A stretch of DNA of 49,214 nucleotides from Candidatus Poribacteria bacterium (GTDB lineage: Bacteria > Poribacteria > WGA-4E > WGA-3G). The DNA lies in the NCBI GenBank assembly GCA_022827885.1, contig JAJEIP010000049.1:1-49214 (forward strand), written 5' to 3'. The number at the start of each line of letters is the position of its first letter. Within the stretch, counting starts at the first letter, position 1. Shown one piece after another: positions 9,309 to 22,238 of this stretch. Both the position numbers and the translations under genes were made by a program. The notes beneath the pieces were generated by a model. The model worked only from the letters and a program-made list of their open reading frames with translations, searched no databases and was not told the DNA's origin.

Positions 9309-10949
9309 TTAGATTTTCCCGGACATCCGTTCTGCCAACCGAGCGAGTGCGGGTGAAGTGTCCAATTTTTCGAGTTCCGCTTCGATCAGGGTAAAGTGTT
9401 CCGTCGCAGCGAGTGCGGTTTTGATGGCTTCATCGAATTCACCTTCGGTTCTGACATAGTAGCCGTGTCCTGTTCCAAAGAGTGTTGGCATGGCACTATA
9501 GTTCCAACCGCCTATGTCGTTAAAGGGACCGTCGAGGAGATGCCGTTCGGTCCCGTACCCGTGGTTGTTGAGGACAAGCACAATCGGATTGAGTCCGTAA
9601 CGGACGGTCGTTGAGAGTTCAGTGCCTGTCATTTGGAAGGCGCCATCTCCGACGATAACGAGACACCGCGCCTGCGGCATGCTCAGCTGCGCCCCAACGG
9701 ATGCCGGCACTGCAAACCCCATTGAGGTGTAGTAGGCGGGACTGATAAAGTTGGTATGTTGATGGATGCGCAGCTCGGCAGCCCCGAAGAGGCTGTCCCC
9801 GACATCCGCGATAACCGTCAATTCGTCGTTTATGAATTCATTCAGGTGTTGGAACAACCGGCAAGCTGTTAAAGGTTTATCGGGTTCGACCTTAAACGGT
9901 TCCGTATCCGGAAACGCCCATCCCAAATTCGGTTTCCGTCGCCTTCGGAGTTTCGGCGAATTGAGACCGTCGATAAAATCGTCGAACATCACCTCTTCGT
10001 AATTGTGATAACGGATTGCGATTTTTTCCGAGGTGGCGTAGATGGAATGTGCCCGATCGAGATTTGCGGTGTAAATCCCAAGGTTCACATCCGTCATGAA
10101 TGCACCGAGGATGATCACACAATCCGAGTCTTCAACAAATTGTCGGACCTCTTGTCTCCCCATCGCACCCTCGTATATCCCCAAGTAAAGCGGATGCGAT
10201 TCCGGCACTACCGACTTTCCAAGGAGCGTTGCCACGACTGGAATCCGTTTTTCATCTATGAGTCGGAGTAATTTATTTTGGTAGCCGAATCTGTGGAGTT
10301 CTACACCCGCGAGAATGACAGGTCTTTTACTGTGGTTGATGAAATCAATAGCCTCTTCGACGGCGACCTCCAGTGTCTCCGGATCGCTGAGATGTCCACC
10401 CGTTGACGGACGTTGGTAAAGCGTGCCGCGCACATCGACCATGTCGCGTGGGAGTTCAATGTATCCGGGACGTTTATAGCGATAAACGGCATCGAGCACC
10501 CTATCGATTTCATTGAAGGCGGTAAAGGGTTCATCGAGGAGTGCCGTTGCGACGGTTATCTCGTCATAGATGCGTTGCTGTGTATGGAAATCCCTGACTT
10601 TATGGTGGAGGAGTTCATCTTTTCCGTGTTCTCTGATGCCGGGGGCACCACTGATAACAACAACGGGTGATTTCTCTGCGTAGGCACCCGCGACAGCGTT
10701 CACCATGGATAACCCACCGACGCAATAGGTAACACAGGCGGCACCCATGCCTTTTATCCGAGCATAAGCATCAGCGGCGTAGCCTGCTGCGTCCTCACGG
10801 GTCATACCGATATGCTGAATTGAACTCTGCTCGATAAGGTCATAGAACCGCAGGACGTAATCCCCCGGAATACCAAAGATGTGTTCAATGTCATAACCCT
10901 CTAATTTTCTGAGTAGGTATTCACCGATCGTTGGAGGTCTGTTATACAT
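9309..10949 (-). CDS. ThDP-dependent 2-keto-acid decarboxylase (indolepyruvate/pyruvate decarboxylase family)
   Basis: A 546-residue thiamine-diphosphate enzyme. Residues match the pyruvate and indolepyruvate decarboxylase active site: Asp30 in GIPGDY, Glu52 in TREDAAGYAADAYAR, the His115-His116 pair in LLHHK, and Glu468 in NNHGYGTERH. The ThDP/Mg motif runs from GDGAFQ (434-439) to the NN at 461-462. The His pair and Glu separate it from acetolactate synthase and benzoylformate decarboxylase. It should decarboxylate a 2-keto acid such as phenylpyruvate or indolepyruvate to an aldehyde in the cytoplasm. GAGGTGCCACC precedes the ATG. A decayed copy of this gene's start lies at 11891-11952. Confidence 0.9.
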   Translation of the reverse strand: MYNRPPTIGEYLLRKLEGYDIEHIFGIPGDYVLRFYDLIEQSSIQHIGMTREDAAGYAADAYARIKGMGAACVTYCVGGLSMVNAVAGAYAEKSPVVVISGAPGIREHGKDELLHHKVRDFHTQQRIYDEITVATALLDEPFTAFNEIDRVLDAVYRYKRPGYIELPRDMVDVRGTLYQRPSTGGHLSDPETLEVAVEEAIDFINHSKRPVILAGVELHRFGYQNKLLRLIDEKRIPVVATLLGKSVVPESHPLYLGIYEGAMGRQEVRQFVEDSDCVIILGAFMTDVNLGIYTANLDRAHSIYATSEKIAIRYHNYEEVMFDDFIDGLNSPKLRRRRKPNLGWAFPDTEPFKVEPDKPLTACRLFQHLNEFINDELTVIADVGDSLFGAAELRIHQHTNFISPAYYTSMGFAVPASVGAQLSMPQARCLVIVGDGAFQMTGTELSTTVRYGLNPIVLVLNNHGYGTERHLLDGPFNDIGGWNYSAMPTLFGTGHGYYVRTEGEFDEAIKTALAATEHFTLIEAELEKLDTSPALARLAERMSGKI

Positions 10950-11010
10950 GGTGGCACCTCACTGTGGGGTTGTTGTTTCTATAAATCCATGCGTCCGACA
11001 TCATCTTTCG

Positions 11011-11045
11011 TAGCATAGACTGTGCGTCTGTGCTATTAGCAGCAT
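11011..11045. repeat. Palindromic repeat R5, copy 2
   Basis: Contains GTAGCATAGACTG...GTCTGTGC, with hairpin arms GCATAGAC and GTCTGTGC around a 5-base loop and one mismatched pair. It matches the repeat at 2639-2699 and lies between the decarboxylase and the Rpn-type gene. Confidence 0.55.
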
Positions 11046-11055
11046 GCCTTGACAT

Positions 11056-11844
11056 TTACGATTGTCTTAGTTTTTCGATATCTATTTCTGGGATACCTGT
11101 TGCTCTTGCGATAACTTCGGTGCTTACGCCTTCGCTAATCAGGGCGCGTGCAATGGTAATCTTTTCCTGTTGCCTTGTATCTATTAAGGTATCTTCCCAA
11201 GACTCTTCATCCTTAAGGACCCTGCGCTCCGCAGGCGAGATGTTGTCCAGTTTAACCGCATCAATCACCCTCTCAAAAATCGGGGAGTTATAGAGACTTC
11301 CGTCTATTTCTCCATCCAGAGAATCCAAAACGAGTTCCAACCACGCTTTAATGCCCGGTGGTGTCTTATCGTTGACCATCCGCGGGACCACAAACACGAG
11401 TTGATGCGGGTAGACATTGACTTTCCGGCTAAATTCGTTGACCGGGTTGAAATCCGCGATAGCCACACTAAAGTCGATGTCCGCCTCGCTATACGGACTC
11501 GTTAGGACAACAATCGTGTAAACTGTCCGATTGAATTGATACGCCTTGCTGTTTTTCACCTGTTCTACGAGGTTGATAAGATGATAGTATAGGAAACGAT
11601 CGTAGAAGTGTCGCTCTTTGACGTGTTGTATCTCAACCACAATACGAGATTCCGTATCCTCAGCAAACAAATCGTATTCAATATCAACCTGTCCGATGGG
11701 TTCAAGGAATTTGTAGCCGCGATGCACCTCATCGGTATGGAATTTGATGCCTAAGACATCTTCGACAAATTGACAGAAGATATCCGGTTGACCGAACGCT
11801 TTCTTAAAAGCCATGTCGTATCGTAAGGGAACAACTCGCTCCAT
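11056..11844 (-). CDS. Rpn family recombination-promoting nuclease / PD-(D/E)XK transposase-like protein
   Basis: The 262-residue product matches the Rpn/YhgA-like family. It opens with PLRYDMAFKKAFGQPD and has the nuclease core Asp58 in VDIEYDLFAED with Glu71-Ile-Gln73 in IVVEIQH, a PD-(D/E)XK-type site where Gln takes the Lys position, as is common in this family. A C-terminal EGVSTEVIARATGIPEIDIEKL segment looks like a helix-turn-helix. Escherichia coli Rpn proteins are DNA endonucleases that promote RecA-independent recombination. AGGGAGCC lies before the ATG. It is bracketed by the decarboxylase gene and a remnant duplicate of that gene's start, which suggests it arrived during a local rearrangement. 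Confidence 0.85.
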   Translation of the reverse strand: MERVVPLRYDMAFKKAFGQPDIFCQFVEDVLGIKFHTDEVHRGYKFLEPIGQVDIEYDLFAEDTESRIVVEIQHVKERHFYDRFLYYHLINLVEQVKNSKAYQFNRTVYTIVVLTSPYSEADIDFSVAIADFNPVNEFSRKVNVYPHQLVFVVPRMVNDKTPPGIKAWLELVLDSLDGEIDGSLYNSPIFERVIDAVKLDNISPAERRVLKDEESWEDTLIDTRQQEKITIARALISEGVSTEVIARATGIPEIDIEKLRQS

Positions 11845-11890
11845 TTTAGGCTCCCTTTTATAAAGTTTAAACAGGATTCTGGCTCAAGTC

Positions 11891-11952
11891 ATGTTCAATG
11901 TCGTAGTTCTCTAATTTTTTGAGTAGATATTTGCCGAAGGTCTGTTGTACAT
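11891..11952 (-). pseudogene. Truncated duplicate of the 2-keto-acid decarboxylase 5' end
   Basis: Read on the minus strand, this stretch starts ATG-TAC-AAC-AGA-CCT (MYNRP), loses 7 bases, and continues in another frame as GKYLLKKLENYDIEH. The intact gene at 10949 begins MYNRPPTIGEYLLRKLEGYDIEH. Similarity continues upstream of the ATG (GAGGTCTTATC against GAGGTGCCACC) to about 11979 and stops abruptly at 11891. It is therefore a relic of a second decarboxylase gene in the same orientation, with the Rpn-type gene now where its body would be. A weak promoter-like pair (TTGCCC, 18 bases, TACAAT at 11989-12018 on the minus strand) may be its old promoter. Confidence 0.8.
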
Positions 11953-12038
11953 GATAAGACCTCGTCGTGCGGATTTGTTTTTAACGGTATTGTACCATAA
12001 AGAGATAGACTGGGGCAAGCCTAAATCCCATGCACAAC

Positions 12039-13034
12039 TTAACAAAATACCGCCTCAAACAGTCTATGTTCTTCAAGGAAATGCGAGATTTCAGTTGTGG
12101 GACTTTCCGTTAGATCTGATCGGAAACGGACTCCACTAACACCGGAAGGAAGATTTGGGTTGACGGAGGGAATTACAGAAGTTTCATAAAATTCAAGTGA
12201 TTCTTCTGCTAATCTTTCGTCGAATCGTGCGTCGGATGCCTGTTGCCAAGTATTGCCGAGTGTAAGTGCTATGACTCTGTCAATGTGTAAAAGTGCATCA
12301 AAATTGTTACCGAGACGAATTTGTATCTTTTCTCTTAGTTCCTCAATAGAAACTCCGGCTTGCGAACTTTCAACAGGTACAGAGGCAACGAGTGCTTTTA
12401 CATCCTCTGGTGGATACAATTGTTCAAGTGAAAAATGATGTAGCCTGATAGTTCCAGAGAAACTTTTCACCTCAATTCGCTGGTTGTCCATAGCAAAATC
12501 GTAGCGATCCTCGGGGGCAGTATGCCATGCCTCTACTAAAATATCAGGTTGATGTGCTTGGGCAATTAGAAATAATTCTGCCCATAATCCTTGCACCGAC
12601 TTTTGAGACCCGTTCATCATCGCCCGAAATAATTCAATTAACTGGTTCATAGCATGAGCTACATCAGATTGATTCGGTTGATTTCCAAGAGATATGACGA
12701 TGGTAGACATAACCTTCAGGAAGTAATCTTGTAGTGTTGCGTCTGCCTCAGTACAATGGATAAGGGTGAATACTCCTTCTTCAAATGTTCCATCTGGACG
12801 AGAGACACGACAATTCAGGTTATACTGAACTCTGAGATGCTCAAGGACAATTGGTGGCAGTTGGCTTTGGCTTCTGACATTAAGTGTTGAGATTAGGAGT
12901 AGTGGTCTACCTTGACTATCTTTACCGAGGCGATGGGGTTCATATCCAGGAATTGGAGAGGCAGCAAAACGATCCTCGTCATTAGTTGTAGTAATGGAAT
13001 CAAATGATTGGAAAAGTTTAATTAGATTTAGCAT
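12039..13034 (-). CDS. PD-(D/E)XK motif protein (DUF4420-type nuclease of Z1 defence systems)
   Basis: A 331-residue protein with a restriction-like active site: Glu153 in GLWAELFLI, Asp179 in EDRYDFAM and Glu188-Val-Lys190 in RIEVKSFSG. The layout, a conserved early Glu, then 'D.a.' and 'iEVKs', is that of the PD-(D/E)XK family found with Z1 helicases and GHKL ATPases. It is probably the DNA-cutting subunit. The gene starts 2 bases after the Z1 stop codon and is the last of the operon. The final 60 residues (from about 270) show no known domain. Confidence 0.8.
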   Translation of the reverse strand: MLNLIKLFQSFDSITTTNDEDRFAASPIPGYEPHRLGKDSQGRPLLLISTLNVRSQSQLPPIVLEHLRVQYNLNCRVSRPDGTFEEGVFTLIHCTEADATLQDYFLKVMSTIVISLGNQPNQSDVAHAMNQLIELFRAMMNGSQKSVQGLWAELFLIAQAHQPDILVEAWHTAPEDRYDFAMDNQRIEVKSFSGTIRLHHFSLEQLYPPEDVKALVASVPVESSQAGVSIEELREKIQIRLGNNFDALLHIDRVIALTLGNTWQQASDARFDERLAEESLEFYETSVIPSVNPNLPSGVSGVRFRSDLTESPTTEISHFLEEHRLFEAVFC

Positions 13035-13036
13035 GG

Positions 13037-15283
13037 CTAACTTCCGATTTCATCGCTCCCCTGATCTTGGACAAGCCAATCAGTTGAAACATCTTTCGGA
13101 AGCCAAACCGCTACAGTTGGAACGTCCGAAAACTTTTTGTCACTCTCTTGAATCAATTCAAGAATGTGAATTTGGACAGTCACACCTTTAGGTGCTTTTA
13201 TCTTTCTGTCGCCTGGGTATATCGTTCCTGTGCGGGGGCTTGGTCCCTGAAATAATGTAGGAATTTCATCGTTTTTGTTCAGTGTTCTTTTACGAGGATT
13301 ACCTCTACTCATGTAGTAGATCGTACACAAGGCATCAGGATGAGTATCAAGATAGGCAGCAATCTGTAGGCGTATCCCCGTAAATTTCTGTGAGTCAACG
13401 AGGCGCGTGACGCGCAACGGCACAAGTAAGTGTTCATAGACATCTTTGAGACGGACATCTGTTGATACATTATGCCAGGCTTCAATTCGACTTGTTCTTT
13501 GCGCGTCGGTTTGAAATGATAAGGTGTCCAAGAACTTCTGAACGATAAAGCGGTTTTCTTTAATTGCTGCTTCTGAATCGTGTGGGGCTTTTGGTTCGTA
13601 CCATCGACTGCTCAAATTTCCTTGCGTGTAATCTATGTCAAGAACGTTATGACGAGTCGGTTTAAGATTTCGATCAAGGAAGAATGCACGTTTCCAAGTA
13701 TTAAGAGGCGTACCAGTTTTATCGTGAGCAATTAAACGATCCCGAACATCCTCTTCGTGTATAATATAATCGTGATAAGCATCACTCACACTATTCTCTA
13801 GAAAAACTCTACAGTATCCAAAATAGGTTTGCTTATAACCGAAAAACCTTGCTCTCTGTTGGATCGTATCAGCGTTACCCATGCCAGGCCCCCTTGGCAT
13901 ATAGGTTACGGTTAAACCCTCAACGGTAAAGCCTCTATCCATCGCCTGACCACCAACCAAAATATGGGCATAAGTATTATGCCATGGAATACTCGGTGTT
14001 CGCCCACCAGCCGCATTGACTTCGTGAAGTTGAGTCTTACGAATTGCGCGCAAAAGCGAGGCTGGTAACTCCTCAAAAGATGGTAAGTTTGATACAGTCC
14101 TTTGAAGGCTTTCATAACTATTTCTAAATTCCTCAAGGAGGTCTTGGCGATCCGGATCATTTTCATCAAGGTTAAGGATTTCTATCCAATAGTTTCTTAC
14201 TTGCTCAACCCAAAAATAATATTCCCCGTGTCGGAAAGTTTCACGGGAAGGATGAACCATCATTGATCGGTTACCTTCAAGGTATTCACCTTCTAGGATC
14301 GTTGCAGCAGTGACTCCCAAAAAGAATATTCTCATTGCTTCAAGTAGACTCTCCGGTGGAGCATCTAACGGAGCATCTCGAGTTGGTATTTCGCTGTCTG
14401 GGATTGTATAGATGCGATTTGGTTGGTCGTGAAAAAACGCTTTACCGCCGATGTATTTTGCTCCAGGTGTTAACACTTTTGCAAAATTGGGAGATAGGAC
14501 ATCAATCAGATTAATAAGCAAAGGAGCTTGAGGTGTTGCCGTATATTGAAGAAATGTATGGTGTGGCAAATACTCTCGGAGAGTAAGAACACGTTGATAA
14601 GTGGTACTTGCTTCGCCCTTTTGAACCTTTGTGTTTAGGCTAGCTTGATCTGCCTCATCATCGATAATCAACGTAGGGACATTTGAAAGATTGTCAATCC
14701 GGGAAAGAATCTCACCCAAGTTTTTCAAATGTTGGTGGTGTTTCATAGTGGTAATGAGCACCGTTTGACGTTCCCAGTCTGGGACGCTTGCGTCTTGCCA
14801 GTCCGCTAAGACATTTGCGATCTTGGCATGATCACCCTCATTGAATTCATGACTTTTAAAGTGCTGCCATTTCCTATCTGCACGCGTAAGCAGATTCAAG
14901 TCGTCTTCAAGACGTTTAGTTGACTGATCTCGCAAATTTATAGATGTTCCTGCGATCGCGATTACCATCTGATAGCCATTATCTCTGGCAAGAGCAGCGA
15001 CAGTTGTAAATGACAGCGTTTTACCACTTTGGACGTGCCCGACAACAAGTCCAGTTTCCTGTTTTGGAGGGACTGTTGGATCTACGCATTTCGCTAACAC
15101 GGAAATAGCTTCGTCTTTTATGGTTTCCCATTCAGTTTTTGTAACACGTGATGGGCAAATTTGTCCTCTTAAAGTTCCTGTCGCTTTTCCTGCAATAGGC
15201 TGCCATGAACCGTCTATTTGATTGTTCGCTTCCCGTATGATTTCAACAGTTTCTACTTGAACTATGGTGTCTCTTTTGTTCAT
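13037..15283 (-). CDS. Z1 domain-containing ATPase/helicase
   Basis: The 748-residue product has superfamily II helicase-like motifs: Walker A VGHVQSGKT (81-89), Walker B LIIDDEAD (205-212), LQYTATPQ (245-252), and a C-terminal Z1 part with LVGGQAMDRGFTVEGLTV (442-459) and QQRARFFGYK (475-484), the motif VI arginine region. Z1 proteins are the motor subunits of MORC-linked restriction systems and Mza. The reading frame is open up to a GTG at 15325, overlapping the ATPase gene by 23 bases, but I prefer the ATG at 15283 (MNKRDTIVQV), which leaves a 19-base gap. The upstream ribosome site is weak for both. Confidence 0.9.
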   Translation of the reverse strand: MNKRDTIVQVETVEIIREANNQIDGSWQPIAGKATGTLRGQICPSRVTKTEWETIKDEAISVLAKCVDPTVPPKQETGLVVGHVQSGKTLSFTTVAALARDNGYQMVIAIAGTSINLRDQSTKRLEDDLNLLTRADRKWQHFKSHEFNEGDHAKIANVLADWQDASVPDWERQTVLITTMKHHQHLKNLGEILSRIDNLSNVPTLIIDDEADQASLNTKVQKGEASTTYQRVLTLREYLPHHTFLQYTATPQAPLLINLIDVLSPNFAKVLTPGAKYIGGKAFFHDQPNRIYTIPDSEIPTRDAPLDAPPESLLEAMRIFFLGVTAATILEGEYLEGNRSMMVHPSRETFRHGEYYFWVEQVRNYWIEILNLDENDPDRQDLLEEFRNSYESLQRTVSNLPSFEELPASLLRAIRKTQLHEVNAAGGRTPSIPWHNTYAHILVGGQAMDRGFTVEGLTVTYMPRGPGMGNADTIQQRARFFGYKQTYFGYCRVFLENSVSDAYHDYIIHEEDVRDRLIAHDKTGTPLNTWKRAFFLDRNLKPTRHNVLDIDYTQGNLSSRWYEPKAPHDSEAAIKENRFIVQKFLDTLSFQTDAQRTSRIEAWHNVSTDVRLKDVYEHLLVPLRVTRLVDSQKFTGIRLQIAAYLDTHPDALCTIYYMSRGNPRKRTLNKNDEIPTLFQGPSPRTGTIYPGDRKIKAPKGVTVQIHILELIQESDKKFSDVPTVAVWLPKDVSTDWLVQDQGSDEIGS

Positions 15284-15302
15284 AGCAATACTCAAAACAA
15301 GA

Positions 15303-16838
15303 TTAAGGTTTGGATAAAGCATCACGGAGGAACTTATTAATATTACGAATGAAAGTTCTCGTTTTGCTCACTCCGCTGTCTCTTGCTGTAATTTCTGCCA
15401 AGGCGATGGCAATAGCCAGTCGTTGCAGAGGTTCAATTTGGGATGCCTCAACACCACTATATTGTACCATAAATGGGTGTGCAAGCGACATACGGATTTT
15501 AACTCGTCTGACTTTTCCATCCCATGGATCGTCACTGACAGAAATCCAATCTCCAACTGCTTCATTATTCACTAGTTCTATTGAGATTTCCCATTTTTTA
15601 CCATCGATTTCCACCGGAACGGTTTTATTAGCAATAGGCATTTCTGTGGTTGACAAGTCCGACGGGGGCGGTTCATTTTCGGGCTTTTCATAGAGTTGTG
15701 CCTCAATAACGGGAGGTACATCATATTCTACAGTCCTTGAAGTACGCCAGGTTGAAGTTTTTGCCCCTGGCTTCAGATCAGGAGTTTTTTGTCTGACCCG
15801 GTGCCCTTCTGCTTGACTGAGTAATGGCATTGGGTCGGCATTAAGTTCTTCTTTCAGTAGCCCCAAAAAGGGTTCCTCGTTCTCATCCCACTGAAAACCA
15901 TCCTTAGTGTGGCTAACATCGAATCCTTCAAGATGAAGTTCACCAAAGAGTCGTTGATAAGTGTAAGAATTTGGGTTGCCAAAAATAAGTTTTGGTCGAT
16001 AGCCTTCGTCCGCGCTTCCCTGGATTAAACGATTTCTGCGGAACAGCGCAAATCCAGCATGTGATGTACTTCCGGTCTCACGTAGTGCTACAAAACCACG
16101 AGCACGTAGTCCAGTCCCAAAGTCAAAATCAATTTCTTTTCGCCACAATCGGGGTATTTCTGATGGTTTCTCGTGAAATGGAGCGCATAATATTTTGGGT
16201 TGTGAATAAGATAAAACTTCACTACCAAAGCGTAGTTCTAATAACCCTTCTCTAATAAATACGCGATAGATACTTGCCAAATGTTCGCGAATTTTACCTA
16301 TCGTTCTTCCTTGTGGGGGTTTGTGTAGATTAGATAAGATAATTTCGGTGAAGTGCGAACTAGAATGAGTGGGTCTTGATTCTACGGTTAATTCTTCTAA
16401 ATTATCTTCTACAATTTGAGAAATGTCGAAATGAACTGTCTTTTCTTCTAATTCACCCAGTGCCGTCGTCCGAACTGTCCAGTTTGGAGAAAACCAGCAT
16501 GCTGCACTCTTCATGCCCATCCCGAATTCCGATAATCCACTTGTATTAGGGGGCACTTCTGCAGGACGGAACGCATATGTGTAGTCTTTCTCGTGAATGC
16601 CCGCTGCATTGTCTCGAACAATCAAGCGACCGTCATCAGAAGAGTCCAATTCAATTTCAACACGTAATTTTGCATCGTTCTCGTCAAGATGCTCAATTTC
16701 TTCCTTATAGTCAAGAAAACTTTGGATTGAATTATCAACAAACTCTGCAATGGCAAACCAAGGTTTGTAATTGAGGTGGCTGAGAACAGAAAGTATCCCG
16801 ACCCCTGGACGGATCTGGACCTTCTGAGGTGTGCTCAT
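15303..16838 (-). CDS. GHKL (MutL/Hsp90/MORC-like) ATPase
   Basis: The 511-residue product has the Bergerat ATP-binding fold. The N box is AEFVDNSIQS (31-40) with catalytic Glu32 and Mg-binding Asn36; the G1 box is DNAAGI (76-81); the G2 lid is GLSEFGMGMKSAA (101-113). Similarity to the MORC/Hsp90 side of the family includes GVGILSVLSHLNYKPWFAIAE at the start. Such ATPases are thought to act as ATP-gated clamps on DNA that control the nuclease and helicase partners. AAGGATT precedes the ATG, which lies 5 bases after the methyltransferase stop. Confidence 0.9.
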   Translation of the reverse strand: MSTPQKVQIRPGVGILSVLSHLNYKPWFAIAEFVDNSIQSFLDYKEEIEHLDENDAKLRVEIELDSSDDGRLIVRDNAAGIHEKDYTYAFRPAEVPPNTSGLSEFGMGMKSAACWFSPNWTVRTTALGELEEKTVHFDISQIVEDNLEELTVESRPTHSSSHFTEIILSNLHKPPQGRTIGKIREHLASIYRVFIREGLLELRFGSEVLSYSQPKILCAPFHEKPSEIPRLWRKEIDFDFGTGLRARGFVALRETGSTSHAGFALFRRNRLIQGSADEGYRPKLIFGNPNSYTYQRLFGELHLEGFDVSHTKDGFQWDENEEPFLGLLKEELNADPMPLLSQAEGHRVRQKTPDLKPGAKTSTWRTSRTVEYDVPPVIEAQLYEKPENEPPPSDLSTTEMPIANKTVPVEIDGKKWEISIELVNNEAVGDWISVSDDPWDGKVRRVKIRMSLAHPFMVQYSGVEASQIEPLQRLAIAIALAEITARDSGVSKTRTFIRNINKFLRDALSKP

Positions 16839-16843
16839 AATTT

Positions 16844-18235
16844 CTAATCCTTCCCTATATCTATTGGCAAATCAAGCTGCCCTTCCAAGTTAGTTGATAC
16901 ATCAGAATTTGATGTCAGTGCTTTAGCAACGCGTTCAACGACATCTACATTGACAGCATTACCTAAGGCGGTGAAGGCACGAGATGGCGTTTCTGGTAAC
17001 TCTAGTGCCTCTTTATTCATGCCCTTCAGACGTTTCTTGCCCGGCTTGCAAGCCATACCTTGCAAGCGGGCACACTCCCGATGCGTCATGTATCGTTTTT
17101 CCCAACCGATAATGGGAACATTGCAAGCAATTGTCACAAGCGAAGGGGCAGTTGTCGCCCTTTTAACTCTAATTCCCGAAGCTCTGAATTGAATTACGAA
17201 GTCCCATAGATCCCATAGATTTCGGTCTTCGGTTTTACAATTCCATTCAAATTTCTGATAACTCGGCGGAAATTTCCGAATTTTGGGTTGCCATTCGTCA
17301 ATCCAATTCTTGTTATTTTCATAAAACACACGATTCTCTTGAATAAATTGGATTTTCCATGCAGGAAACTGCCCTTTTTCTCTTTTCGCATAAGATGGTA
17401 AACTCTGCCACACTTCATCATCTGTTAAGGCTTCTAAATCTTTTCCATGGCCCCACTTATGTTTGCGCAAATCTTGTATATCTAAGGAGTGAAGTGTACC
17501 ATCCAGCGGATAATTTGCTCCAAACTCCATGGACCAAATCGGTGCTCGAGGCAGATCTTCGTCTTCTGGAAGTAAATCGAGAAACTCTTTCCAGATAGTT
17601 AAACACTCTTTTTGTCGTTGGGTCAGCGGTTGAACATCGGAAAGATTCTCACCAAGGTACTCTCTAAGATTCGGTTCAATACAAGTGGAAGGTTCACGAA
17701 GAAGGCGTGGATAACCTTCCCGATCTCCGAGAATAAATACTCGCCGGCGGATTTGTGGGATTCCAAATTTATGAGGGGATAAACAAGTGTCGTCTACGTA
17801 ATATCCAGCGTTTTCAAGTGCTTTCTTTATTTTTTTCCATGTTTGTTCATTATCATGTTTTCTGAGATTTAGAACATTTTCCAAGATGAAATAACGTGGT
17901 TCCTTGGCCTCTAAGATTTTTATCACATAATCAAAGAGGTTTCCCTGATCTGGGTAGTCAAACCCTGTGCGTAATTCAGTTGGCGTAGCTTTAGAAAAAG
18001 GTTGGCATGGAAAACCCGCGCATAAAATATGGTGATCGGGAATGGAGCATGGGTCAATATTCCGAATATCACCGTTCGGTTTGAAATCAAAATTCTTCTC
18101 GTATAGTGCACGGAGTTGCTCATCTTTCTCGCATGCGAAAACACACTCGTGTCCAAGACGCTTTAGTGCTAAATGGAAACCGCCAAGACCAGCGAAAAGA
18201 TCTATGAATTTCATGCTTGTTTTTATTTCAGACAT
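16844..18235 (-). CDS. C5 cytosine DNA methyltransferase
   Basis: A 463-residue 5-methylcytosine methyltransferase. Visible motifs are I (FAGLGG, 14-19, SAM binding), IV (GFPCQPFS, catalytic Cys77), VI (ENV, 119-121), VIII (QIRRR, 161-165), then a long target-recognition region, IX (RECARLQG near 400) and X (ALGNAVN near 437). It should methylate cytosine in a specific site and so protect host DNA from the linked nucleases. The recognition sequence cannot be read from the protein. It lies 5 bases downstream of the PD-(D/E)XK-like gene; the ribosome site is weak, suggesting translation coupled to the upstream gene. Confidence 0.95.
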   Translation of the reverse strand: MSEIKTSMKFIDLFAGLGGFHLALKRLGHECVFACEKDEQLRALYEKNFDFKPNGDIRNIDPCSIPDHHILCAGFPCQPFSKATPTELRTGFDYPDQGNLFDYVIKILEAKEPRYFILENVLNLRKHDNEQTWKKIKKALENAGYYVDDTCLSPHKFGIPQIRRRVFILGDREGYPRLLREPSTCIEPNLREYLGENLSDVQPLTQRQKECLTIWKEFLDLLPEDEDLPRAPIWSMEFGANYPLDGTLHSLDIQDLRKHKWGHGKDLEALTDDEVWQSLPSYAKREKGQFPAWKIQFIQENRVFYENNKNWIDEWQPKIRKFPPSYQKFEWNCKTEDRNLWDLWDFVIQFRASGIRVKRATTAPSLVTIACNVPIIGWEKRYMTHRECARLQGMACKPGKKRLKGMNKEALELPETPSRAFTALGNAVNVDVVERVAKALTSNSDVSTNLEGQLDLPIDIGKD

Positions 18236-18240
18236 ACCAG

Positions 18241-19179
18241 TTAGTTAGGTGGTAATTGATTGATTCTTGGTGTTGCCCACTTGACAATTCGATTTGTCAA
18301 GATAGGTGATTCCCAGTGTTGACGATATTTTGCTGCCGCAAGCAATCTGTACCGATCTAGGAGCAACCCCTTTACAAGAATGCATGAGTCTCTGAAGTCA
18401 TCCTCAACAAGAGCGAACGGAATCGCGAATGCTTTCTGAGGTTTAACTACAAAGTCAATATAGTCTTGCCACAAATCGGGATCAGGTGTGTGGACCTTTC
18501 CATTCCAGTCTTGACCACTAGCACATTGCATTAAATATATCGGAAATGCTGCTCGATTGTCAGAAAAAGAATGGTAACACAGGAGGTCAAGTCCTGCGTC
18601 CTTACCATTTGACTTTGCCCGTTCGTTAACACCATGTTTGGGGGGAAGGCCTAACCAATCTGCAACTTGATGCACCATTTCGTGGAGTTTCACTGATTGT
18701 GTGTAAGACGAACCTGTACGTTTGATTTGCCAATCTAAAAATTGTTCTTTGAGCGATTCTTGGGTCAGTAACTCAAATAGTTCTGCTTGCTCGTTGTAGT
18801 CTGAACCGGATACGCGATTCCACCATCCTTTGTAGCATTGAGCGAGCGACAAAAGAACACAGAAACTATGGGCAGGAGTGTCTTGCCATGGGCTAACTCG
18901 TTTTAATCGAGAATTTTCAATGGAAAATGGGATCCTCGGGGCAACACACTTAAGTCGATGTTCCAATTCTTGCCAAGCATTAAGAACAATATCCATGGCG
19001 AAGTCCGGATCTGCGTAAATAGATTCGTCAATCAAAACATCAACGACATCCTGCATAGAAAATTCGTCTTCATTTTCGTCGAACAGGATGCTACTTTCTA
19101 TCCAGTCACATAAGAAATTAAACTTAATATTATGTTTCTTAATTGATCTGCGCATACCACTATCTGGAATTGGAAGCAT
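18241..19179 (-). CDS. Putative PD-(D/E)XK nuclease-like subunit
   Basis: I do not recognise a named family for this 312-residue protein. The centre carries AGLDLLCYHSFSDNRAAFP (195-213) followed by IYLMQCASGQDW (214-225). Asp198 and Gln218 followed by Cys fit a variant PD-(D/E)XK core, in which 'QC(A/K)' replaces 'ExK', and Glu133 could be the helix Glu. The rest is mainly helical. The gene overlaps the 3' end of the ParB-like gene by 20 bases and has GAGAGGG before its ATG, so the pair are coupled. A catalytically altered nuclease or specificity subunit is possible. Confidence 0.55.
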   Translation of the reverse strand: MLPIPDSGMRRSIKKHNIKFNFLCDWIESSILFDENEDEFSMQDVVDVLIDESIYADPDFAMDIVLNAWQELEHRLKCVAPRIPFSIENSRLKRVSPWQDTPAHSFCVLLSLAQCYKGWWNRVSGSDYNEQAELFELLTQESLKEQFLDWQIKRTGSSYTQSVKLHEMVHQVADWLGLPPKHGVNERAKSNGKDAGLDLLCYHSFSDNRAAFPIYLMQCASGQDWNGKVHTPDPDLWQDYIDFVVKPQKAFAIPFALVEDDFRDSCILVKGLLLDRYRLLAAAKYRQHWESPILTNRIVKWATPRINQLPPN

Positions 19180-20299
19180 CAGTCTTTCCCTCTCGTTCTT
19201 GAAGTTCTTGATGAATCTTTGGAAAGACCTTCAGCAGTTGCCTCACATCAATCCCTAATCTTTTGACTGCTTGCTGGATATCTTCTGAATCCTCGTGATG
19301 GTGAACATGGCCCAAGGCGATTTGGACATTAGAAGCGGCTTGGCTGAGAAGTTGGACAGTTTTTGATTTATTCATCCCTGCCAGTTGACGGGCATGTTCA
19401 AAAGATGGGTTTTCCTCTTGCTCAAAATACTCAACAATTGGAGGATTTTCAAGAAGTTCTCCGAAATCGTCAACACTCCGTGAATCCATAAAAACTGGCT
19501 TCTTATTCTTTTCCTTACTACCAAACAACCATCGCGCAAAATTCGCAAGAGCCTCCAAGTGAGTTTTAGGGACGGGACGTTGAGCCGCATTCTCATTTGC
19601 AAAGATATCAATATCAAGATACTTTTGTACTCCTTGTGTTCGAAGAGAGAGATACATAACACTGAACCGACCCCTTACATCTTCAGGTGAAAAATCCTCT
19701 AAACTATCCTCCATTTGTAATAGCAGCCTATAAGAAATATAATTCTGACGAACTGTCGGAGTTTTACTGCCAATTTTACGCATTACTTCTTGGTACGTCA
19801 TTCCCTCTTCATCTATTAATCGAGCAATGTATTGTGCCTTCTCTTCGGCATTCCATTGCTTAACCCCTGTGACGTGACGGAACCCTAAAAATGCCTCAAT
19901 TTCTTGGCGGGAATCAACCAGTATGTATGGTATCCGGTCAAAAAGAATGTCAGGGACTTCTACACCTATGACAAGGGACTTCCATTTAGAAGGGACATCT
20001 TTTTTTTTCACAGCATTGTATAAATACTTCAATGCTGCAAGTCGACGGTTTCCTTCCACAACGACAAATCGAGGTTCTCCATCCAATTCCTCTCGCGTTA
20101 CCAACAATGCCTCATGGGTCCAAAAACCGCTCTCCAAGTAGGATACAGCAAGTTCATCAAGTACCCAATCGCGCATCAAATCCAGAACTTCTTCTTGAGA
20201 AAGTTTAGCATTGACATAATGACGACCTAATCTCGGGTTCTTTGGATCAAGGTAAAGGTCATCAAGTTTCGCATACTTAAGTTTTGTACTTATTGCCAT
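19160..20299 (-). CDS. ParB/sulfiredoxin-fold protein of the defence operon
   Basis: A 379-residue protein with an N-terminal ParB-like nuclease/CTPase domain: LDDLYLDPKNPRLG near residue 12, PRFVVVEGNRRLAALKYL (76-93) with the diagnostic GNRR box. A helix-turn-helix-like stretch MTYQEVMRKIGSKTPTVRQNYISYRLL follows near 170. The first gene of the operon, it has AGGTG close before its ATG and a strong promoter about 100 bases upstream. ParB-domain proteins can bind CTP, slide on DNA or act as nucleases; here it may load the complex or sense DNA. No ParA partner is present, so chromosome segregation is unlikely. Confidence 0.85.
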   Translation of the reverse strand: MAISTKLKYAKLDDLYLDPKNPRLGRHYVNAKLSQEEVLDLMRDWVLDELAVSYLESGFWTHEALLVTREELDGEPRFVVVEGNRRLAALKYLYNAVKKKDVPSKWKSLVIGVEVPDILFDRIPYILVDSRQEIEAFLGFRHVTGVKQWNAEEKAQYIARLIDEEGMTYQEVMRKIGSKTPTVRQNYISYRLLLQMEDSLEDFSPEDVRGRFSVMYLSLRTQGVQKYLDIDIFANENAAQRPVPKTHLEALANFARWLFGSKEKNKKPVFMDSRSVDDFGELLENPPIVEYFEQEENPSFEHARQLAGMNKSKTVQLLSQAASNVQIALGHVHHHEDSEDIQQAVKRLGIDVRQLLKVFPKIHQELQEREGKTDASNSR

Positions 20300-20398
20300 A
20301 ATTCACCTTAATTTAGTAGAAGTTCCTGTTCACAGTAGGTGCTTTGTGATTCATTGTGAGTCTAATTCCCTTTATGCTGGTGAGGGCTATAAAAAACA

Positions 20399-20427
20399 AT
20401 GATACCATACCAACGTTAACTAGTCAA
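20399..20427 (-). promoter_or_regulatory. Promoter of the defence operon
   Basis: On the minus strand TTGACT (20427-20422), a 17-base spacer and TATCAT (20404-20399) form a strong sigma-70-type promoter, with a leader of roughly 90 bases before the ParB-like start at 20299. This implies constitutive or repressor-controlled expression of the six-gene operon. Confidence 0.75.
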
Positions 20428-20496
20428 GCGTCTAAAAATATCCCAAATCGCTGACCAAGTGAATTCCACTTTTGTAGATGTGTCGAACCTAACCTC

Positions 20497-21165
20497 TTAA
20501 AAAGTCTCAGTAGCAACAAGAGCAACATCAGGAATTTCATTGATGTCTATTACAACTTCTTTTCCCTTTAGTCCATTACTATCTGCTTCTATAGCACAAT
20601 CTTGGAGAAAGCCGCAACATTGGTGTATGGTTTCGTTATTGAAACAGATAAAATGGATTTCCTCTAAAATAAAAATTATTTTACGTGTTCGAGACATTAT
20701 ACCCCTGTTAATCTTGTTTGAGTCATACTTGCTAACTCCTCCTCTGAGTTCATCATGCCATTTTTTGAAGGATGTTTCTTTATCATCAAATTTTATGTCA
20801 CCTATAGCGAGGATTGTTCCATAATAGCCGTAATCGCTTATTGTGTTTGCTATTCCTTCTGCACCATTCGCAGTGACACTATAAGTTCCGGGATTAACTG
20901 AATCCGCCTTAAAATCCCACGAGATTTCACGAAATGCATCAAACCCTGTAATGCCATGTTGCTTGCCGGGCATTTCAATTATGCTACCGAAATGTTTTTG
21001 ACCCAGAAATTTAAAATAAAAATCTATCCATTCCATCTGTTTCCAATCCTTGAAACCAGCATCTTTCATCTCAAGGATAGATTCTCTGCCATTCCAAACT
21101 TTTGGCATGTTTTGAGAGGCAAGTCTCAATTTTTCTACTGTGTCAACTATTTTCTTTTCTACCAT
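20497..21165 (-). CDS. Putative restriction endonuclease-like protein (PD-(D/E)XK)
   Basis: A 222-residue protein with WNGRESILEMKDAGFKDWKQ (24-43) and then GITGFDAFREISWDFKAD (71-88). Asp76, Asp84 and Lys86 form a D-x7-D-x-K arrangement like the active site of type II restriction enzymes. The later VVIDINEIP tail is of unknown use. It lies 197 bases upstream of the ParB-like start on the same strand, outside the tight operon, and has an A/T-rich composition like the island. No strong ribosome site is seen. It may be an extra or older restriction enzyme paired with the nearby methyltransferase. Confidence 0.55.
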   Translation of the reverse strand: MVEKKIVDTVEKLRLASQNMPKVWNGRESILEMKDAGFKDWKQMEWIDFYFKFLGQKHFGSIIEMPGKQHGITGFDAFREISWDFKADSVNPGTYSVTANGAEGIANTISDYGYYGTILAIGDIKFDDKETSFKKWHDELRGGVSKYDSNKINRGIMSRTRKIIFILEEIHFICFNNETIHQCCGFLQDCAIEADSNGLKGKEVVIDINEIPDVALVATETF

Positions 21166-21272
21166 ATCTTAAATCCATCAATTAAACCTGCTACCGGCAT
21201 TAGGTTAAGGATTGTTGGCACTCCATCTCGGAAACCGAGACGGGGCATGGTATAACTCAGCCAAATCCGAAT

Positions 21273-22238
21273 CTATGTTGCCATTAAAATTTCGAGGAAT
21301 GCTGTCATATACCCGATGGCATACGCTCTGCCTCGGTGTCCCCAGTCTGTGTCATCAACGACGTGTGGCACATGGTCGGTAATCATAAAGCCTGTAAAAC
21401 CGACCTCTTTCAACGTCCGCATCACGTCAAACATATCGCAGTTGCCGTTGTTAACGAAGGATTCCGCAAATTTTGGGACATGCCCTTGGACATCTCGGAA
21501 ATGGACGTAAAAAATCTTGTCGCGTTCTCCGAAATAACGGATCGCGTCCGTCACACCCGGTCCCATTTCCGACCAGGAACCGACACAGAAATCGAGCCCG
21601 TGTATGGGGCTGTCGGCGATTTCCATCCCGCGTTTGAAACCCTCAAAGTTACGGAACAAGCGCGGCACACCTGCAAGGGATTCCACAGGCGGATCATCTG
21701 GGTGGAGCGCGAGCTTAACACCCGCCTCTTCTGCGACGGGCAGAATGGCGTTCATGTAGTACTCGTAGTTTTTCCATATCTCGTCTTCCGTGTAAACCCG
21801 ACCGTGCGTTAAAGGCGCGTCTTTAACCTGCTCCATATCGAAACTGGTAACAGCGGCACCGCCTCTCCCCAATGTCGTTCGGGAGGTCCGCCAGACTTCA
21901 TTGGGCATCCAGTGGTACCCGAATATTTCAACACCCGCCTTGCCGAGGTTGCGGATCGTCGTTACCATGTTCTCAATCTGGGCGTCGCGTCCGGGCAAAC
22001 CGAGCATCGCTTTATCGTAAAACGAGACAGGCACGTTCTCAAGTGCCGCTAACCGTAACCCGGCATTCTCTATCTCTGTCCGGAGATGAAGGATGTCCAT
22101 GAATTCCCAGCGTTCTGTGCCGGGGAGTTGGGGAGTGTTGAGCAGCACATCTTCAACCCCAAGTTGCTTGATGAATTTCAGCCGTTCTTCACTGAGGGCA
22201 TTGAACTGACCTAAGCCGAGACGCATTTTCTGTGCCAT
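21273..22238 (-). CDS. uxuA: Mannonate dehydratase (UxuA family)
   Basis: A 321-residue UxuA-type TIM-barrel enzyme, expected to dehydrate D-mannonate to 2-keto-3-deoxygluconate in hexuronate breakdown. Family motifs are LALHPDDPP (176-184), LDFCVGSWSEMG (215-226), HFRDVQGH (246-253) and ITDHVPHVVDD (286-296), which carry the metal-binding His, Cys, His and Asp. It is a little shorter than the approximately 390-residue E. coli enzyme, as are many homologues outside the Enterobacteria. AAGGAG lies 6 bases before the ATG. It is a single gene between the defence island and a MITE-like repeat at 22293. Confidence 0.9.
   Translation of the reverse strand: MAQKMRLGLGQFNALSEERLKFIKQLGVEDVLLNTPQLPGTERWEFMDILHLRTEIENAGLRLAALENVPVSFYDKAMLGLPGRDAQIENMVTTIRNLGKAGVEIFGYHWMPNEVWRTSRTTLGRGGAAVTSFDMEQVKDAPLTHGRVYTEDEIWKNYEYYMNAILPVAEEAGVKLALHPDDPPVESLAGVPRLFRNFEGFKRGMEIADSPIHGLDFCVGSWSEMGPGVTDAIRYFGERDKIFYVHFRDVQGHVPKFAESFVNNGNCDMFDVMRTLKEVGFTGFMITDHVPHVVDDTDWGHRGRAYAIGYMTAFLEILMAT

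Follow-up and report, generated by a model that had tools for sequence, protein, structure and literature searches.

A ParB-X312 cassette stacked on a MORC-Z1-DUF4420 core: a candidate composite restriction-modification locus in Poribacteria

The window analyzed here, a stretch of 49,214 nucleotides from a contig of a 96.7% complete Candidatus Poribacteria genome (G000), carries a six-gene operon at positions 12039-20299 that probably cuts foreign DNA by means of two DNA-cutting arms sharing one self-mark. Four of the genes, which encode a C5 cytosine DNA methyltransferase, a MORC ATPase, a DEAD-Z1 helicase and a DUF4420 nuclease, form an already known core, which belongs to the third type of MORC restriction-modification operon in Iyer et al. 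2008. The other two genes encode a ParB-like protein and a 312-residue protein, here called X312, and constitute an optional, independently mobile cassette. We read the whole as a composite restriction-modification locus in which one methyl mark protects against two exchangeable modules, MORC-Z1-DUF4420 and ParB-X312, and we place the probability of this reading at roughly 0.55.

A separable cassette at MORC-type cores

A scan of approximately 85,000 genomes yielded 356 relatives of the MORC gene, and the 80 best loci among these were compared. The order methyltransferase-MORC-Z1-DUF4420 is nearly universal in these loci, which span Poribacteria, Bacteroidota, Proteobacteria, Chloroflexota and one archaeal bin. 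The ParB-X312 pair accompanies the core in 13 of the 80 loci, while one further locus (L032) has ParB alone and the rest have neither, leaving 67 cores without the pair. Its placement varies, as it lies upstream of the core on the same strand in the window, L013-L015, L063 and L068; downstream on the same strand in L023, L074 and the plasmid L093; downstream on the opposite strand in L044, L055, L056 and L066; upstream on the opposite strand in L024; and between MORC and Z1 in L090. X312 is present in 5/83 Poribacteria genomes and in 9/394 additional Bacteroidota genomes (the phylum of G089), and its adjacency to the core in 13/80 loci is therefore far beyond chance. Whole-genome searches of 18 core genomes, of which 11 have ParB beside the core and 7 do not, found X312 as a single copy at the core in 10 and nowhere in the other 8.

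Outside the core, we collected 72 X312 loci from viral contigs, plasmids and genomes, which fall into 42 clusters at 60% identity; one of these clusters, represented by the plasmid L093, carries Z1 and DUF4420 after all. ParB adjoins X312 in 41 of the 42 clusters, and 37 of them have a DNA methyltransferase no more than three genes away from X312 (29 C5, 7 Dam-like and 1 N4-type), compared with a background of 44 among 782 random open reading frames (ORFs) of the same loci (5.6%). Many of the cassettes sit between the portal and replication genes in the variable locus of P2-like prophages, where anti-phage systems are known to cluster (PMC9122126). A fixed six-gene system is rejected, given that most cores stand by themselves and that the cassette can be separated from them. 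The preliminary description had proposed an undescribed six-gene subtype, and this proposal fails on the same grounds, as most cores lack the pair and the pair also lives beside C5, Dam-like and N4-type methyltransferases. The six genes it described do recur: congeners keep their order, and elsewhere they are arranged differently.

These distributions bear on the alternative that ParB and X312 belong to a MORC-Z1 complex as accessory subunits or regulate it, with ParB as a specificity or loading factor or an autorepressor, and X312 as a structural protein or second-strand nuclease. Consistent with such a role, the pair shares an overlapping operon with the core in the window, is inserted between MORC and Z1 in L090, and is accompanied by the finding that X312 occurs only at the core within the 18 genomes searched whole. 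However, more than 60 loci combine ParB-X312 and a methyltransferase with no core at all, and most cores are without the pair, which makes an accessory role unlikely.

Two loci are unusual in their composition. On the Neorhizobium plasmid L093 (2766-11982), the methyltransferase ORF is split in two and a DUF262 protein takes the place of MORC, followed by Z1, DUF4420, ParB and X312. In L012 (2-2285), which belongs to the same genome as L009, a second, distant MORC-type gene directly follows a C5 methyltransferase without a helicase.

The predicted nuclease, its partner and the shared methyltransferase family

X312 has no significant match in Pfam, PADLOC or NCBIfam. Its AlphaFold2 model (predicted local distance difference test score, pLDDT, 87.9; predicted template modelling score 0.89) points to a winged helix joined to a PD-(D/E)XK restriction-endonuclease fold. 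In structure comparison with the PDB, the N-terminal third of the model matches winged-helix domains, and residues ~100-290 match the restriction endonucleases BsaWI, NgoMIV, EcoT38I, SdaI, Bse634I, MspJI and FokI together with other PD-(D/E)XK nucleases. These fold matches reach Z-scores of 5.5-7.5 over 110-150 residues, and the list is almost uniform, with restriction enzymes making up most of the top matches. Among 55 representatives, D198 and Q218 never vary (55/55 each), and E136 (48/55), C219 (53/55), W225 (53/55) and K228 (51/55) are highly conserved. The catalytic lysine has probably moved from position 220 to 228. The predicted fold and the conserved Q218-C219 agree with the earlier suggestion that the protein is a QC-variant PD-(D/E)XK-like enzyme. 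We also considered X312 as a diverged DUF4420 protein, which was rejected because the two have no profile similarity (hhalign probability 0.2%). The ParB-like partner carries a nucleotide-binding P-motif and a helix-turn-helix (HTH) domain, the HTH_ParB match lying just above the cut-off, and its VVxEGNRR box is nearly invariant. Sequence searches for solved relatives of the ParB-like, MORC and Z1 proteins gave nothing useful.

No C5 enzyme other than the methyltransferase of the window was found in its genome (a single PF00145 match), and therefore both modules, if they operate under a C5 mark, depend on the same enzyme. Methyltransferases of its subfamily also occur in the cassette-only loci L178, L179, L224, L225, L098 and L099, which have no core gene in the available DNA, though in L098 and L099 the sequence breaks off shortly past the methyltransferase and a core is possible there. 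In a maximum-likelihood tree, the cassette-only methyltransferases nest among those of core loci, with L178 falling within a starred clade of 18 rows, mostly core loci, and L224 grouping with L070 and L076 in another starred clade. This tree requires at least 15 gains or losses of the cassette and at least 5 of the core. In C5 enzymes, target recognition lies between motifs VIII and IX; over this segment, L178 and L224 share 62-66% identity with their nearest core enzymes, only slightly less than elsewhere in the protein. These sequences suggest that one METHYLTRANSFERASE family serves two modules, as either module occurs with this methyltransferase family without the other.

From these observations we infer a mechanism in which each module cuts DNA under a common mark and the locus acts against phages. 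The C5 methyltransferase would mark the recognition sites of the host. The first module, consisting of the MORC ATPase, the DEAD-Z1 translocase and the DUF4420 nuclease, would perform ATP-dependent restriction of the known MORC type, in which unmethylated sites are recognized, the Z1 motor travels along the DNA, which is then looped or trapped by the MORC clamp and cleaved by DUF4420. The second module, ParB-like protein and X312, would be a further, independently mobile restriction unit, in which the ParB-like nucleoside triphosphatase (NTPase) binds DNA through its HTH domain and loads on unmarked DNA in the manner of a ParB clamp, and X312 cuts. Where both modules are present, they would share one self-mark while forming two restriction arms with different weak points, because either module appears to work with this methyltransferase family alone.

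The cassette could also be a second line of defense, an abortive-type guard triggered once methylation-based restriction has been undermined, similar to the combination of restriction-modification and abortive infection (RM+Abi) proposed for PD-lambda-5. The ParB-like protein is related to PD-Lambda-5_A of that compact RM+Abi system (PMC9519451), operons of ParB, a DNA methylase and a HEPN protein were noted in 2013 (PMC3710099), and some cassettes have no methyltransferase. Against this, the predicted fold of X312 is that of a restriction endonuclease and not of HEPN, and the swapping of C5, Dam-like and N4 methyltransferases is a habit of restriction enzymes; we thus regard a guard of this type as slightly less probable still than an accessory role. 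It is far less likely that ParB-X312 attacks modified phage DNA in a type IV-like manner with an incidental methyltransferase as neighbor. ParB-fold DUF262 proteins of the GmrSD family do act on modified DNA (PMC12373910), but the pair has no HNH domain, and the excess of methyltransferases within three genes over the 5.6% background would be difficult to reconcile with an incidental neighbor.

Several points weigh against the composite reading, chief among them the cassettes that lack a methyltransferase and the displaced lysine of X312. The loci L208 (G084), which occupies the same chromosomal site as the window operon, L094 and L129 all carry ParB-X312 without an adjacent methyltransferase. 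The canonical lysine position of X312, residue 220, is K in only 4 of the 55 representatives (QCK) and otherwise mostly A or G, such that catalysis depends on K228 taking over, and X312 may instead have lost its nuclease activity and serve to bind DNA. In addition, the Z-scores of its fold matches, all below 8, are moderate; the methyltransferase tree is a quick one; and the common specificity of the methyltransferases is inferred from their sequences. Finally, we found no experiment on any ParB-X312 pair.

The operon and its chromosomal surroundings

The coordinates of the operon and its neighboring features are given in Table 1. A check of the ORFs confirms the six tightly packed minus-strand genes of the preliminary description at their positions, with intergenic distances, from the DUF4420 gene to the ParB-like gene, of +2, -23, +5, +5 and -20 base pairs (bp). 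Its assignments for the DUF4420, Z1, GHKL, C5 methyltransferase and ParB-like products are likewise upheld by the Pfam matches, and the GHKL, Z1, C5 and DUF4420 motifs of the core enzymes are intact. The Z1 motifs, including QQRARFFG, are present as described, though their earlier numbering was offset by 14 residues because it started at an internal ATG; this protein is the only Z1 protein in its genome. The promoter proposed at 20427-20399 is the best-placed match upstream of the operon and has an extended -10 element, but 20 such matches occur compared with 19.6 expected in shuffled sequences, so that the match is no evidence on its own.

Table 1. Features of the six-gene operon and its immediate upstream region
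Feature	Position	Strand	Evidence and remarks
DUF4420 PD-(D/E)XK nuclease, 331 aa	12039..13034	-	Pfam DUF4420 5.1e-31; E-D-EVK intact; adjoins Z1 in most of 80 loci
Superfamily 2 (SF2; DEAD-type) helicase with Z1 domain, 762 aa (748 aa from internal ATG)	13037..15325	-	Pfam Z1 2.3e-33; Walker A GHVQSGKT; Walker B IIDDEAD; DTIQQRARFFG
Prokaryotic MORC (GHKL + S5) ATPase, 511 aa	15303..16838	-	HATPase_c_3 1.9e-14; N box, G1, G2; S5 motif GFALFRRNRLI
C5 cytosine DNA methyltransferase, 463 aa	16844..18235	-	Pfam DNA_methylase 2.9e-62; all C5 motifs
X312, predicted winged-helix + PD-(D/E)XK-fold protein, 312 aa	18241..19179	-	AlphaFold2 pLDDT 87.9; PDB matches mainly restriction endonucleases; E136, D198, Q218-C219, W225, K228
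ParB-like NTP-binding/HTH protein, 379 aa, X312 partner	19160..20299	-	HTH_ParB 7.5e-5; PADLOC PDC-M38A 2e-21, PD-Lambda-5_A 5e-17; VVxEGNRR box
Candidate extended -10 promoter of operon	20399..20427	-	TTGACT-17-TATCAT, 10/12, TG before -10
U222, orphan restriction-type gene, 222 aa, outside operon	20497..21165	-	in 27/83 Poribacteria genomes, mostly without operon

The operon sits between a UxuA-like gene (21273-22238) and a thiamine pyrophosphate (TPP)-enzyme gene (9309-10949). At the same site, L008 and L009 have the same six genes together with U222, L208 has ParB-X312 without a methyltransferase, and L209 and L210 have an N4/N6-type methyltransferase with U222, accompanied by a lone ParB gene in L209 and by none in L210. 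The different restriction genes found at this site in relatives therefore indicate that the window holds a layered defense hotspot, and the interval from the UxuA-like to the TPP-enzyme gene (9309-22238 in the window; L208-L212) appears to be an insertion hotspot for restriction genes in Poribacteria. Downstream of the operon, an Rpn/PDDEXK_2 transposase-family gene (11056-11844) is kept at the same place in relatives.

U222 lies 197 bp upstream of the operon and has a restriction-type motif, FDAF..WDFK, with no methyltransferase beside it in the window; its AlphaFold model (pLDDT 37) is unusable. We rejected it as a seventh component because it is spread across Poribacteria, mostly without the operon, and directly follows the N4/N6-type methyltransferase in L209 and L210. 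That methyltransferase is likely its cognate enzyme, and its absence from the window would leave U222 as an orphan endonuclease-like gene.

Comparison with known systems

The third MORC operon type combines a MORC ATPase with an SF2 helicase, which has DThhQXuRhFG in its C-terminal domain, and with a restriction endonuclease-fold protein that has an E-D-ExK motif, often accompanied by a cytosine methylase and Vsr (PMC2292703). The window operon has all of the principal elements, as the MORC-specific S5 motif GhXhhpXXRhl appears in the GHKL protein as GFALFRRNRLI at residue 262, the helicase motif appears as DTIQQRARFFG at 486, the DUF4420 protein carries WAE-YDF-EVK, and a cytosine methylase is present. 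Because both GFALFRRNRLI and DTIQQRARFFG are carried, the operon is MORC in the strict sense and not paraMORC, and the kinship with MORC-linked restriction systems suggested earlier is sound. A Vsr-type gene (Pfam PF03852) accompanies 12 of the 82 loci compared. The ParB-X312 pair, in contrast, is not mentioned in that description. Closely related to this core, Z1, DUF4420 and a cytosine methyltransferase are proposed as a putative defense system by Miller, Stern and Burstein 2022 (PMC9523054), including a six-gene type I that is linked there with DNA-repair endonucleases, much as Vsr occurs near cores of the window type. Three further genes of type I are unnamed in the text of that paper, and type I may correspond to the six genes of the window.

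For the Z1 motor, the N-proteins of CglI and NgoAVII are a known analogue, being DEAD-Z1 proteins whose ATP hydrolysis is needed for restriction and occurs only together with the R-protein on unmethylated sites, alongside a DNA methyltransferase (PMC4267653). The window helicase similarly has Z1 and ResIII-like Pfam matches and a PADLOC Helicase_II match (1e-54). The two systems differ in their nuclease, which is a PLD-B3 R-protein in CglI/NgoAVII and DUF4420 in the window operon, where Pfam finds no PLD or B3 match, and CglI/NgoAVII have neither MORC nor ParB-X312. A divergent Mza system, to which the preliminary description had linked the operon, is scarcely credible: Mza (Gao et al. 2020; described in PMC9523054) also has MutL-type ATPase, Z1 and DUF4420 proteins by name and there is weak similarity to MzaC (3.5e-26) and MzaD (2e-7), but the NCBIfam scores fall far below the curated cut-offs (91.5 bits against 1500 for MzaC and 30.4 against 420 for MzaD), MzaB has no match, and neither AIPR (MzaE), whose absence had been noted correctly, nor a sigma factor (MzaA) is found in the operon with Pfam, PADLOC or NCBIfam.

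The nearest described relative of the cassette is PD-lambda-5 (PMC9519451), which is likewise prophage-borne and places a gene for a ParB-like N-terminal domain beside a DNA methyltransferase. However, PD-lambda-5 pairs a single ParB protein of 450-500 aa with a Dam-like methyltransferase and has no X312. The PADLOC match of the window ParB-like protein to PD-Lambda-5_A is partial (residues 13-185 of 379 on profile positions 17-184 of 473), and the window methyltransferase is of the C5 class rather than the Dam-like class of PD-Lambda-5_B. Among the viral contigs, L156-L176 are loci of the PD-lambda-5 type, with ParB-like proteins of 430-550 aa and a Dam-like methyltransferase of ~286 aa, and they encode distant relatives of the window ParB-like protein. 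Our literature search, with subscription papers, preprints and supplements mostly outside its reach, found no earlier description of the trio of ParB, PD-(D/E)XK protein and methyltransferase. More tentatively, and at somewhat less than even odds, ParB-X312 could represent a class of restriction enzyme not described before. An NTP-gated DNA clamp of the ParB type would serve in place of the motor or recognition subunit, delivering a PD-(D/E)XK nuclease with a migrated lysine. Such an enzyme would be exchangeable between C5, Dam-like and N4 methyltransferases and, stacked here on MORC-Z1, would allow one methyl mark to license two mechanistically different cutters.

If this is correct, the repertoire of restriction enzymes would gain a nuclease pair built around a ParB clamp, and two unlike restriction modules would share one methyltransferase, so that a phage would have to beat both. 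It would also account for genes that lack annotation in Wphi and other P2-like coliphages and in ~1.5% of complete Escherichia coli genomes, as DNA similar to the pair is present in 84 of 5,426 such genomes, and the E. coli version makes the reading testable in a standard laboratory strain. In Escherichia phage Wphi the trio corresponds to gp98, gp96 and mth, and in E. coli the Prokaryotic Genome Annotation Pipeline (PGAP) labels its members 'ParB N-terminal domain-containing protein', 'hypothetical protein' and 'DNA cytosine methyltransferase'. These phage and P2-like prophage loci resemble the window in having a ParB-like, an X312-like and a C5 methyltransferase gene in a row, and differ from it in that they have no MORC-Z1-DUF4420 core, their methyltransferase is shorter and divergent, and the genes of the pair are annotated only as hypothetical or ParB-domain proteins.

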